In this document: piece after piece, positions 35,171 through 45,203 of the stretch | Layout of the letters: each line of letters begins with the position of its first letter | How positions within the stretch are numbered: position 1 is the stretch's first letter | Virus record (IMG/VR): IMGVR_UViG_3300048625_000063 | Span: 1 to 49,496 of that record | Source: a virus | Direction: 5' to 3' (one strand) | Length of the DNA stretch: 49,496 nt | The notes under the pieces: generated by a model | Databases searched by the model: none | Told to the model about the DNA's origin: nothing | The model's input: only the letters and a program-made list of their open reading frames with translations | Program-made: the position numbers and the translations under genes

Positions 35171-35568
35171 TTCTTTCCTCCGAGTCTTTTACTGATTGTT
35201 CCTTGGTTGAGCCCAGTAAGTTTAGATACCATGCCTTGACTTGTTCCCTGACCCACAGCACTTGCCACAAGGGAGTAATCAGTGCTAGAATCAGCACGAT
35301 TATATAAGATACTCCTAAGAATATCGAGAGTGCCCACATTCAGGTTTCCTCCAGTTCTATCATTCTTACCGATTAATTTACTTACTGTCCCATGACCTAT
35401 CTTACCATTGGTAATGGCAGATATCTGTCTGCTAGAAAAGACACCGTGAGAGCCTAACTCCCGAATATACCCAAAGGTTTCTTCTTTAGTTAGGCCCTCT
35501 ACGTTATCTCGTAACCAGATTGCCTCATTCAATGCTTGTGCGATAACAAGTTCCCTTGCTCTATCCAT
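35167..35568 (-). CDS. helix-turn-helix DNA-binding protein
   Basis: 133 residues with two similar HTH-like segments: SSRQISAITNGKIGHGTVSK and QGMVSKLTGLNQGTISKRLG, both with the S-x-I/L-T-x-x-x-x-G-T-[IV]-S-K pattern. This suggests a tandem-HTH transcription or replication regulator. ATG 35568 overlaps the end of the primase gene by 8 nt. Confidence 0.68.
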   Translation of the reverse strand: MDRARELVIAQALNEAIWLRDNVEGLTKEETFGYIRELGSHGVFSSRQISAITNGKIGHGTVSKLIGKNDRTGGNLNVGTLDILRSILYNRADSSTDYSLVASAVGQGTSQGMVSKLTGLNQGTISKRLGGKK

Positions 35569-37759
35569 TCACAATCACCTCCAGATAGGTCTTCTGATTC
35601 TCTACTACAGATTGAACTCTAGCCTGAGAGTAAAGTGCTTGAACCATCTCATCGAACTCACGCTTACGCTTGTTGTTGAACTTCTTGTAAGCATCTTCGT
35701 AACGCATACGGCCACCCTTATCTACGATAAGAGCCTCTAGCCTATCTACATCACGTTGCCATTCAGAAGCAGAGATTGCTCCAGCCATTTGGACTAGGTT
35801 CCAGAACCAATCCTCTGAGTAATAGATAGCAGTAAGCAGGTGCTTCAGTTCTACTTCCTCAGACTTGTCATACATCGCAAGCAATACTGCACACTTCCAA
35901 ACGGATAGTGCCAGTCGCTGGCGAGATGGCTCGATTGATTCCTTTTCTGGATGGTTCTCAGCGTAGTTTCCCATCTCCCATTTATACTGGTTGAATCGTT
36001 CTATTGCTGCATCGCTCAACCTGATTGGTCGAGGCGATGGTCCACCCTTTTTCTGCCAGAACATGACTGCCTCAGAGAGACGGCGCATCATATCCTCAAG
36101 AGCGTCATCACGAACAATAACTTCATATTCATCAGCCTGCTGGATATCCTCAGACTCCCTCGTGCGAGGAGGTGTTGGTGCAGTTACATAAATGAAACGT
36201 GCTAGGAATCCAGACCGGAAATATTCAGTAGTTAGAACGTCAGCAGTCTTGCTAGTAATACCCATCAGATACATAACAAAGTTAGTCTCTGCTCGCTCTG
36301 TCTGAGTCTTACCCTTAGTTGAACGAATAGTCACAGGAACGTGACCATCATACAACTCAGTAAATCGCTCTGCTGCTGAGGCCATGTATGTCTTGTTGAT
36401 AAAGTCCTTAAACATACCCTGAACCTCGTCACGGTGAAGCAACGAAGTCTGACCATCACGCTCTCCAAGGATAGCCGTAAGGCCTTCTGGAGTTGCATCC
36501 GAACCAATGTCAATCTGATACCCTGAGAACTTCTCATAGGTTCTGATTGCCCTTAGCATTAGGTTTCGACTGGTTGACTTACGAGTCAAGGTGGTTTCAC
36601 CAAGAACCATAAACCAAAGATTCAAACCCATCTTGCCAAACTTTGGAACAGCAAAGCCGATATCAGAAAACACACAGGACAATAAGGTCCAAGCGGATGC
36701 GTTCTGATATGCGATAGCACCATCGGTCTTTGAGCAAGCCCAATCACGATAGATGTCAATAAAAGAACGCTCGCTATTTACTAGCGAACGCTCTTGCTCA
36801 TTTAGGAATAGTGGCCTGATTGCCGTAAAGTCTACTGGCTTCTCAAGGTCACTGGTATCTAGTGGAACACTAGCAGGGTCTTGTGCATAAGATGAGCCAG
36901 CACGCTGGACTTCACGCCATAGGTCACCATCAGCATCGAGACGCTTTGGGCGAGTAGGTGAGTGATACTTGTTGCACTTTGCATTACGCACTACAACAAA
37001 TACTTCTTCAGCAGTAAGACCCTGCTTGAATAATGCAACCTCAAGTTTCCATAGCAGTTTGGACATATCCGCACTAGGCGATGGCTCTTCCAGATACAGG
37101 CCCATAATCTCAGGCGTGCTTTTCAGCTTTGCCATAGTCTTCATTAAGTCTGGCCATGTATCTGGCAGAGCATCAAGTGACAGTTCGCGGATTGGCTCCA
37201 CTGCTACATCGCCATAGTGCAACTCAAGGTCATCTAGTGTATAGATAGCACCATTAGTAGTTGCAGTAACTGGCGAACTCTTGCCGGGTTTCATATTCAT
37301 TGTGTTTGGAATACGGAGTAGTTTTGTAGTATTCCATCCCGAAGTATCACAGCCTTGGTGCTTGTGTGCATAGGCAATCTTCTTTGCCAGCAGGGCTGCA
37401 ACTTGTGGGTCAACCTCGTTCTCCAAAATCCAGTAAGTGTGCCAGTGCCCCTCAGAGGTCTGGACAGATATGGATGGTTCAACGAGGAAGTTTTCTGGGG
37501 CACAGGTATCAGCATCAGCATAGATTACATGAACGGTCTTTGCATTTTCTTTGATACGGCGCGGAGCGTTGAATAGGATTGGGGAATAGTATACATCATC
37601 AGTGGCATGAGAGATTGATAGATTAATCATATCATTCTTTTGCTCTGGATAGTTGAAGAACTTTTGCTCCGTCAGTTCACCTGTGATGCCTCGTGTCACT
37701 ATGGTTGCAATGCCTTTAGCATCGCCATAGACTGACTCTAAAAAGTCAACCGTCTGCAT
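35561..37759 (-). CDS. PrimPol-like primase / P-loop helicase fusion
   Basis: 732 residues from ATG 37759 with AAGGAGG; the open frame extends upstream but there only translates the tRNA-Asn gene. The N-terminal archaeo-eukaryotic primase-type domain shows a DxD pair in HVIYADADTC (D82, D84), a His region EGHWHTYW and a basic RIPNTMNMK. The C-terminal P-loop domain has a variant Walker A, GETTLTRKST (387-396), lacking the usual second Gly, and an HRDEV Walker B-like site (about 442-446). It probably primes and unwinds phage DNA; it is the only replisome core enzyme I see. Confidence 0.85.
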   Translation of the reverse strand: MQTVDFLESVYGDAKGIATIVTRGITGELTEQKFFNYPEQKNDMINLSISHATDDVYYSPILFNAPRRIKENAKTVHVIYADADTCAPENFLVEPSISVQTSEGHWHTYWILENEVDPQVAALLAKKIAYAHKHQGCDTSGWNTTKLLRIPNTMNMKPGKSSPVTATTNGAIYTLDDLELHYGDVAVEPIRELSLDALPDTWPDLMKTMAKLKSTPEIMGLYLEEPSPSADMSKLLWKLEVALFKQGLTAEEVFVVVRNAKCNKYHSPTRPKRLDADGDLWREVQRAGSSYAQDPASVPLDTSDLEKPVDFTAIRPLFLNEQERSLVNSERSFIDIYRDWACSKTDGAIAYQNASAWTLLSCVFSDIGFAVPKFGKMGLNLWFMVLGETTLTRKSTSRNLMLRAIRTYEKFSGYQIDIGSDATPEGLTAILGERDGQTSLLHRDEVQGMFKDFINKTYMASAAERFTELYDGHVPVTIRSTKGKTQTERAETNFVMYLMGITSKTADVLTTEYFRSGFLARFIYVTAPTPPRTRESEDIQQADEYEVIVRDDALEDMMRRLSEAVMFWQKKGGPSPRPIRLSDAAIERFNQYKWEMGNYAENHPEKESIEPSRQRLALSVWKCAVLLAMYDKSEEVELKHLLTAIYYSEDWFWNLVQMAGAISASEWQRDVDRLEALIVDKGGRMRYEDAYKKFNNKRKREFDEMVQALYSQARVQSVVENQKTYLEVIVNG

Positions 37760-37791
37760 AAATCCTCCTTTGTTTGTTTTCTTTCTCCTTG

Positions 37792-37863
37792 CTGCCCCTG
37801 CTGGATTCGAACCAACAACCTTGAAGTTAACAGCTTCCTGCTCTGCCATTGAGCTAAGGGGCA
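37792..37863 (-). tRNA. tRNA-Asn (GTT)
   Basis: 72 nt: acceptor TGCCCCT/AGGGGCA (7 bp), D stem GCTC/GAGC, anticodon loop CTGTTAA with GTT, T arm GTTGG-TTCGAAT-CCAGC. The anticodon stem has one mismatch at its outer pair. No CCA is encoded. It sits in the leader of the primase gene. Confidence 0.9.
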
Positions 37864-37966
37864 ATATGTCGTGGGCTATATGCAACTTGCCACGCCAAGT
37901 CAGGGTCATGACCCCACTACCCACCAAAAGCGATTGTCTAGAATCATCTTTTAACAGATAGGCTAG
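37864..37966 (-). other. short spacer between tRNA elements
   Basis: About 100 bases with no gene, tRNA arm or clear promoter that I can recognise. It contains a near-palindromic GGGTCATGACCC word at about 37904-37915. Confidence 0.4.
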
Positions 37967-39353: not shown

Positions 39354-39382
39354 ATTATAACACATCTGATGCTTGTAGTCAA
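39354..39382 (-). promoter_or_regulatory. promoter TTGACT-17-TATAAT
   Basis: -35 at 39377-39382, -10 at 39354-39359, spacer 17, in the gap before the Sak4 gene. Confidence 0.8.
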
Positions 39383-40080
39383 ATACCTACAGCACATTTG
39401 AAACAATATTTTGTTTCAGGGTAATCGTTTGGATGAGAGCCATCTTCTAGGGCTTGCCATAGATTGCTTACTCGATTCCATAACGCAAGAGCAAAGCCCT
39501 CATCATATGGCACAGAGTAAGTCCAGATATCATTCTCATAAGTTCCATCACGATTGATGAACACCAGAGTTGCAGTGTCAATCGGGATGCCGGAGTTATT
39601 CAAACCCCAAGCATACAGCTGTGTCTGGCCAATATATTTTTGCAAAGTATACTCAGACTCAGCATCATCCTTTAGCCCATCAACAAGGTTCTGTAACTTC
39701 TTTACCTTGCTTCTGCTTGTTGTCTTCCAGTCTACTAGATGACGAACACTAGGCAGAACGAGGTCAGGCTTACTGCTAACAATGCCGTAACCATCAATCT
39801 CGCCAAGGGTGATTTTGCGTTCAACCATAGCATCGCTGAAAATAGCGTCATCAGAACCATCAATGCTGTGTTCAAGAAACCCGTGGATTGCAGTTCCAAT
39901 CTTACCTCCCATCCAATACTTAGATTCTGCTTCAGGTGTTCCCACCAAAGCGTGTGCTAGGTGGCGCGTGCAAGGGTCAGAGATATTGCTTGCCCCTACT
40001 TTGTGTTGCTTATCTCGCTCAGACTTCTGCTTGAACAAGTCTACCGCTAGTTGCTTTACTTGTGCGTCACTCAGACTCAA
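39379..40080 (-). CDS. Cas4/RecB-like PD-(D/E)XK nuclease
   Basis: 233 residues. IGTAIHGFLE (H66), SSKPDLVL (D106) and HLVDWKTTS (D117, K119) form the nuclease core, followed by an QTQLYAWGL motif. C37 and C226/C229 could hold a metal, but only three such cysteines are seen, so a Cas4-type 4Fe-4S cluster is uncertain. The start is TTG 40080 after AGGAGG, overlapping WhiB. It probably resects DNA ends for the Sak4 protein. Confidence 0.82.
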   Translation of the reverse strand: MSLSDAQVKQLAVDLFKQKSERDKQHKVGASNISDPCTRHLAHALVGTPEAESKYWMGGKIGTAIHGFLEHSIDGSDDAIFSDAMVERKITLGEIDGYGIVSSKPDLVLPSVRHLVDWKTTSRSKVKKLQNLVDGLKDDAESEYTLQKYIGQTQLYAWGLNNSGIPIDTATLVFINRDGTYENDIWTYSVPYDEGFALALWNRVSNLWQALEDGSHPNDYPETKYCFKCAVGI

Positions 40081-40552
40081 ACAATGCCTCCTCTATAATA
40101 TCGAAATGAACTCCACCCCAGATGCCTGCAGTGATGTTATCAGCAACAGCATAGTCGTAGCAAAGTTTGATTAGAGGACAAGTATAACACATTTCCTCTG
40201 CTTTGTCAACTGAAACTTCCAGAGATTTATCTGCATAAAACTCCGGCTTTCCAAGGCAAGGCGTTGTGGTTTTAGATAGCCCTGCTTGTAACTCACGCCA
40301 TAGTTGTTTGGCGTTTGGGTCTTGCGAGAACTCAAACATCTCAAAGATTGGTTGCTTGTCCTTGCGAACTCGTGCTACTCCACCATTCTTATCCTTATTG
40401 CGTTGATACTTTTCTCTAGCATACTGCTTACGACACTCTCTACATACCCTAGCGTTGTCGTAGGCACGAGTAAAAGTATTATCGTCAGTGAACTCGTGTC
40501 CTTTTGCACAGTGCGTTCCTCGTGGCTTACGCTTGAACTTATAATCTACGAT
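40067..40552 (-). CDS. WhiB-family Fe-S regulator with N-terminal zinc-ribbon extension
   Basis: The WhiB core (90 residues from ATG 40339) has C28, C51, C54, C60 and GIWGG (72-76), the signature of Actinobacteria-specific 4Fe-4S regulators. ATG 40339 has no ribosome site. The frame stays open 71 codons upstream to a stop, with no ATG, GTG or TTG; its first possible start is ATC 40552, 4 nt after AAGGAGG. The extension carries a zinc ribbon, HCAKGHEFTDDNT ... VCRECRKQY, the same module as in the HNH protein at 44790. The ATC start is inferred; total length would be 161 aa. Phage WhiB proteins can alter host transcription. Confidence 0.75.
   Translation of the reverse strand: MVDYKFKRKPRGTHCAKGHEFTDDNTFTRAYDNARVCRECRKQYAREKYQRNKDKNGGVARVRKDKQPIFEMFEFSQDPNAKQLWRELQAGLSKTTTPCLGKPEFYADKSLEVSVDKAEEMCYTCPLIKLCYDYAVADNITAGIWGGVHFDIIEEALFESE
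40181..40209 (-). promoter_or_regulatory. promoter TTGACA-17-TATACT inside WhiB
   Basis: -35 at 40204-40209, -10 at 40181-40186, spacer 17, within the WhiB coding sequence; it would express the downstream nuclease. Confidence 0.65.
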
Positions 40553-40695
40553 GTTTCCTCCTTATGGCAATCGCAAGCGCAAGTATGCGTTGATGACATC
40601 TTCAAACATAGCGTATGGTATCCCGTCTTGCACCAACCAAACTTGACTTCATTTTTAGTATCAGTTGGCTTGACTACGATTTCCTTATCACTCAC
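40546..40695 (-). CDS. small cysteine-rich protein, 49 aa
   Basis: GTG 40695 follows GGAGAGAACAA and overlaps the previous stop (GTGA). Five Cys (C22, C30, C39, C41, C43) with His residues (GYHTLCLK, HTCACDCH) suggest a metal site. Its stop lies just before the WhiB ribosome site. No family recognised. Confidence 0.68.
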   Translation of the reverse strand: MSDKEIVVKPTDTKNEVKFGWCKTGYHTLCLKMSSTHTCACDCHKEETS

Positions 40696-44789: not shown

Positions 44790-45203
44790 TTACTGCCCTA
44801 CTTTCTTATTCTCCAAAAGATATTTTCTAGTATATTCTCTGGCACAGGCTCGGCATCTGCGAGAGCCCGTCTTTTTTATTTGTGTGTTTTCTTTAGTATA
44901 TTCGTGACCCTTTGGGCAACTTGTAATGCGGTCTGAATACTGCCTTACATTTTCCTTTTGGGTTTGCTCCATTAGGTGCTGTGGATTTACACAGTTTCTA
45001 ACTTCGCATAAATGTCCAACTACATTTGGTGTTTCTGGCAGATATCCATTAGTCCAATAAAACATGGCACGATGAACATAACTACTCGGCATATCTTTTC
45101 CATTGAACCTGCCATAGCCTACATTATTTATGTGTCCATTCCATAGCCAACAAGTATCTGTCTTGATTACATTTTTTTCGTATTTATTGTTTGGGATTAT
45201 CAT
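44790..45203 (-). CDS. HNH homing-type endonuclease with C-terminal zinc ribbon
   Basis: 137 residues: CWLWNG, GYGRF and VHRAMFYW lead to the HNH core GHLCEVRNCVNPQHL (H64, N73, H76). A C-terminal zinc ribbon CPKGHEYTKENT ... RCRACAREY follows (C96, H100, C117, C120), the same module as on the WhiB extension. It has its own consensus promoter six bases before ATG 45203, no ribosome site, and breaks the chain of coupled genes, as expected for a mobile element. Confidence 0.88.
   Translation of the reverse strand: MIIPNNKYEKNVIKTDTCWLWNGHINNVGYGRFNGKDMPSSYVHRAMFYWTNGYLPETPNVVGHLCEVRNCVNPQHLMEQTQKENVRQYSDRITSCPKGHEYTKENTQIKKTGSRRCRACAREYTRKYLLENKKVGQ

Follow-up and report, generated by a model that had tools for sequence, protein, structure and literature searches.

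The gene at 40,067–40,552 on the minus strand of the window, which is the whole 49,496-nucleotide stretch of IMG/VR record IMGVR_UViG_3300048625_000063 analysed here, encodes a WhiB protein fused behind an HNH-type zinc finger, and this two-domain frame is confirmed as genuine and not an artefact. Development, stress and drug tolerance of actinobacteria are governed by WhiB proteins, and phages, too, use these proteins as tools. The fused gene is rated a new domain architecture within this known family; its product is best read, with a probability of about 60%, as a two-domain phage regulator that arose once and combines a sigma-docked WhiB half with a DNA-contacting, HNH-derived finger. The features of the locus are as follows.

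40,067–40,552 (−): fused coding sequence, HNH-type zinc finger, linker and WhiB; 161 amino acids plus stop, start ATC at 40,550–40,552
40,557–40,563 (−): Shine-Dalgarno sequence AAGGAGG, ending 4 nt 5' of the ATC; anti-Shine-Dalgarno duplex of about −12 kcal/mol
40,373–40,552 (−): N-terminal zinc-finger module, residues 1–60; ligands C15, H19, C37 and C40
40,265–40,372 (−): linker, residues 61–96; fast evolving, site of exchange of the gene's halves between phages, contains the internal ATG
40,337–40,339 (−): internal ATG of the WhiB frame, in the linker
40,103–40,264 (−): WhiB [4Fe-4S]-type domain, residues 97–150; C99, C122, C125, C131 and G-I-W-G-G
40,070–40,111 (−): acidic C-terminal tail VHFDIIEEALFESE, net charge −5, replacing the basic tail usual in WhiB proteins
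40,546–40,695 (−): upstream gene for a 49-amino-acid Cys-rich protein; its TAG (40,546–40,548) overlaps the start region (ATCGTAG)
39,379–40,080 (−): downstream Cas4/RecB-type exonuclease, overlapping the end of the fusion gene; neighbour in all loci
44,790–45,203 (−): separate HNH endonuclease with a related C-terminal finger at about 44,796–44,933

Architecture, distribution and conservation

The 161 codons form one continuous open frame from the ATC. The coordinates and motifs given in the earlier note are correct: the frame is open for 71 codons upstream of its first ATG, at 40,339, and AAGGAGG precedes the ATC by 4 nt. In the window frame there is no in-frame ATG, GTG or TTG before that ATG, and the upstream closing stop, a TAA, runs into the AAGGAGG. 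Residues 104–149 match the WhiB family PF02467 (E 7e-10, 39.7 bits against a gathering cut-off of 23.6), and residues 11–67 match the tail of the HNH endonuclease family phrog_1492 in PHROGs (E 1e-12). The finger shares the motif C-x-KGHEFT-x(2-3)-NT ... CRxC with the C-terminal fingers of HNH endonucleases (phrog_1492, phrog_826; LittleE G1D3P9, Porcelain and the 44,790 gene). Unlike these enzymes, the fusion protein lacks the HNH catalytic core, a Pfam search of the protein having given only WhiB, and its finger is attached to a regulator; the gene at 44,790 carries HNH_3.

A search of IMG/VR found 28 loci with the whole two-domain protein (54–100% identity), an alignment-based scan added four more (32 in total), and an exonuclease-based scan added further ones, giving about 42 distinct fused open frames from all scans combined, all in sequences of uncultured phages. 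The homologues start with the finger and not with the WhiB core. WhiB genes as such are well known in aquatic actinophages (PMC10202952, PMC6802176, PMC10914622). The fusion was not found in any named phage, where the best places hold two separate genes; megablast against phages gave no relative, scans of 84,980 genomes of bacteria and archaea by pattern yielded neither the fusion nor a relative, and literature searches for a WhiB-HNH fusion found no description, in agreement with the earlier remark that no WhiB of such layout was known.

All eight metal ligands (C15/H19/C37/C40 and C99/C122/C125/C131) are invariant in 35 aligned fusions, which supports the two metal sites proposed earlier. 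The WhiB cysteines in these fusions keep the Wbl spacing C-xn-C-x2-C-x5-C, and the G[IV]WGG turn is present, with G143, W145, G146 and G147 invariant. In 25 pooled sequences, pN/pS was 0.12/0.84 for the finger and 0.285/0.76 for the WhiB half; the share of nonsynonymous sites that differ is 12% in the finger, 28.5% in WhiB and 45% in the linker. Purifying selection is thus stronger on the finger than on the WhiB half; so low a share beside saturated synonymous sites (pS 0.84) means that the finger is translated, and no other part of the protein is as constrained.

An AlphaFold2 model from a 58-sequence alignment reached a pLDDT of 79; a model from 21 sequences was poor (pLDDT 60), and the PDB search from that model was meaningless. 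In the better model, the finger is predicted to form a CxxxH knuckle, a short hairpin and a CxxC that opens a long basic helix (residues 38–55), a treble-clef arrangement. What had been called a zinc ribbon therefore stands as an HNH-type zinc finger, but is predicted not to be a strict ribbon. The modelled finger fits the predicted model of the LittleE HNH tail over 48 residues at 1.3 Å, and a sequence search gave no similar solved structure for it. The modelled WhiB half fits WhiB, WhiB3, WhiB7 and WhiB1 in sigma-A/RNAP complexes with probabilities mostly of 0.8–0.97 but E values of 0.1–0.9; by sequence, it matches solved WhiB proteins with E about 1e-6. The fusion shares the Cys spacing, the GIWGG turn and the predicted core fold with the Wbl factors (PF02467; WhiB7, WhiB3 and WhiB1 with sigma-A region 4: 7kug, 8cwt, 6ono), but differs from them in its N-terminal HNH-type finger, in its acidic rather than basic or AT-hook tail and, in eight versions, in its ATC start.

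Putative function of the two halves

Known Wbl proteins contact DNA through an AT-hook, an Arg-rich motif or basic residues at the C-terminus, and there is continuing debate over which part of WhiB recognises DNA (PMC10245118); a WhiB whose DNA-type finger is separate and can be exchanged provides a natural experiment on this question. A basic or AT-hook C-terminus, common though not universal in Wbl proteins, is absent from the window fusion protein, and the C-terminal tail has a net charge of −1 to −7 in 24 of 25 fusions and of +1 in the remaining one. Residues 1–72 of the window protein carry a net charge of +10; across the fusions, the finger ranges from +7 to +11 and the WhiB core from −3 to −7. 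Basic tails are found in three WhiB proteins of cultured phages, Footloose gp55, Sbash gp53 and Molivia gp64.

In the regulator reading favoured here, the WhiB half would bind a [4Fe-4S] cluster and dock on region 4 of the host principal sigma factor (sigma-A), as solved WhiB proteins do, while the basic finger and helix 38–55 would touch DNA and make up for the contact missing from the short acidic WhiB tail. Phage or host promoters might thereby be set during early infection, and the ATC start probably limits the amount of protein. A more ambitious and less likely proposal is that the fusion represents a new class of sigma-docked regulator, in which promoter choice would lie with a homing-type nuclease finger and dosage with a conserved AUC start, by which synthesis would be tied both to IF3 and to translation of the upstream gene's message.

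It is rather unlikely, though it deserves serious weight, that the fusion protein is made but its finger serves RNA binding, dimerisation or contact with RNA polymerase, with the protein working mainly as a sigma-A-sequestering or decoy WhiB that shuts down host genes. Sister phages retain similar acidic-tailed, finger-less WhiB proteins, some beside a second, AT-hook-tailed WhiB, which means that such a WhiB may act without DNA contact of its own; according to a passage in PMC10202952, which cites the work, the WhiB of phage TM4 inhibits the host WhiB2; and treble-clef fingers serve many functions, possibly including RNA or protein binding. Against this stand the origin of the finger in a DNA endonuclease family, its strongly basic charge and its conservation, the highest in the protein. 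The simpler idea that the finger is purely a replacement for a lost basic tail is weakened by the finger-less relatives: short near-neutral or acidic tails occur in WhiB proteins of the sister clade, so this tail type predates the fusion and needs no DNA-binding replacement by itself.

Probable initiation at a conserved ATC codon

The start proposed in the earlier note is retained in eight distinct versions of the gene (window, L007, L008, L012, L016, L017, L038 and L039), all of which read ATC GTA GA[TC], and the aligned codon in the other versions is ATG or GTG. Comparison of these versions strongly supports the view that translation begins at ATC in the window phage and in the seven others. 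Five of them (window, L007, L008, L012 and L038) have no in-frame ATG, GTG or TTG ahead of the conserved coding part; the ATC copies of L016–018 and L039 are less certain because of an in-frame ATG 8–9 codons upstream in the former and an in-frame GTG 3 codons upstream in the latter. The Shine-Dalgarno sequence is strong in all eight ATC versions (−7.7 to −12.2 kcal/mol, mean −10.1), as expected where a weak start codon needs compensation; it averages −5.5 kcal/mol in the ATG versions and −1.5 in the GTG versions, many being weak or absent. On the 25-fusion tree, the ATC label requires four changes, which indicates that ATC has persisted for a long time and has interchanged with ATG on more than one occasion.

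The stop codon of the upstream gene overlaps the ATC start (ATCGTAG) in seven of the eight versions, lying at +4 relative to the ATC, and this overlap partly explains the constancy of the ATCGTAG; together with the strong Shine-Dalgarno sequence, it probably helps initiation at the ATC. The same arrangement lends some colour to a programmed −1 frameshift, by which ribosomes would leave the upstream frame before its TAG and reach the finger half, the upstream frame being the one that a −1 shift would leave. Such a shift is nevertheless very improbable: the window has no slippery heptamer (GAA ACA TCG TAG), the corresponding codon in other versions is simply ATG or GTG, and the Shine-Dalgarno sequence is strong and at initiation distance. 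The genes upstream of the ATC versions are moreover of three unrelated kinds; most are the Cys-rich mini-protein, L038 has a different gene, and in L039 a membrane-type frame ends before the ATC in another frame.

It is still harder to maintain that the WhiB core alone is made from the ATG at 40,339 and that the upstream frame is a decayed HNH remnant. Standard gene finders, which accept only ATG, GTG and TTG, would choose this ATG and trim the fusion protein to its WhiB half, and HNH genes do lie directly upstream of unfused whiB in the phages Footloose and Peebs. However, the ATG at 40,339 is not conserved and has no Shine-Dalgarno sequence (−1.5 kcal/mol), a start there would lose the most conserved half of the protein, whose ligands are invariant under stronger purifying selection than WhiB, and in most relatives a conventional ATG or GTG precedes the finger. 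A sequencing or assembly error for ATG, conceivable if a single record stood alone, can practically be dismissed, since eight distinct versions, drawn from numerous separate metagenomes, have the same ATC although most synonymous sites around it differ.

As an instance of non-AUG initiation in phages, the conserved ATC start is clean and has been tested by evolution. It resembles the AUU start of infC in E. coli in being a rare start codon under selection that is expected to be IF3-sensitive, and it differs in that the gene is a phage regulator in a multi-gene operon, the codon is AUC, the Shine-Dalgarno sequence is strong and an upstream stop codon lies nearby.

The Cys-rich mini-protein, which precedes the fusion in the window, L007, L008, L012, L016 and L017 and is swapped for other genes in some relatives, has the motif GWC-x-T-x2-H-x3-C ... 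C-x-C-x-C-H; it shows a weak match to phrog_24185, a family of unknown function.

Origin of the fusion and exchange between phages

In every locus long enough, the gene order is helicase, variable small genes, fusion, exonuclease, Sak4-type annealing protein, a 155-amino-acid protein and primase, and the fusion directly precedes the same exonuclease gene in every copy. Among 80 exonuclease-anchored loci, 51 are fused, in 26 the WhiB is unfused, and the remaining 3 are too truncated to be assigned. In the exonuclease tree, a single branch (support 99/93) separates all the fused loci from the others, and relatives outside this clade have an unfused WhiB at the same place. The cultured Arthrobacter phage Molivia (gp64-63), whose exonuclease is distant, likewise has an unfused, basic-tailed WhiB there, and it shares with the IMG/VR loci L147–L168 an unfused WhiB beside a Cas4-type exonuclease and no finger. 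Given the unfused WhiB at the Molivia locus, a single gain of the finger is the simplest reading: the C-terminal finger of an HNH endonuclease would have been joined once, with the nuclease core left behind, to the front of the WhiB upstream of the exonuclease gene.

Independently of this clade, an arrangement that could give rise to such a fusion is seen in Footloose (gp54-55) and Peebs (gp219-220), where a complete HNH gene overlaps the start of whiB. These have the same order of finger and then WhiB, but as two overlapping genes that give two proteins; from a neighbourhood of this kind, the fusion architecture would follow once the nuclease core and a single stop codon were lost.

The earlier note had inferred a module exchange between a homing nuclease and a WhiB regulator from the likeness of the finger to the HNH gene at 44,790. 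The alignment on which this rested is sound (43% identity over about 48 residues, E 6e-7), but a recent swap with that gene is not supported: the tails of mycobacteriophage HNH proteins are closer to the finger (53%), and the fusion is old and common to the whole clade. Exchange does take place between the fusion genes of different phages, whose finger and WhiB halves were swapped later at the linker. Base identity between L105 and L107 is 94% in the finger and 57% in WhiB, that between L012 and L128 is 70% and 93%, respectively, and the two halves of L007 and L144 also have different histories.

Several further arrangements were observed. The HNH endonucleases of two loci (L034, 2,965–3,270, and L035, 2,965–3,243) end in a tandem pair of this zinc finger, and L036 encodes an apparent lone finger protein of about 55 residues; in these loci, the zinc finger behaves as a mobile module. 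Among the finger-less sisters, L133, L135, L137, L138, L151, L166 and near copies carry two tandem WhiB genes, one with a short acidic tail and, between it and the exonuclease, another with a longer tail that has an AT-hook-like GRPR/GRPS in most, and a division of labour between the two is possible. Further along the window locus, a tRNA-Asn gene (anticodon GTT, 37,791–37,863, minus strand) lies inside the mechanical primase frame (35,561–37,927); the true primase start is probably downstream of this tRNA gene, since primase homology begins only from about residue 22–50.
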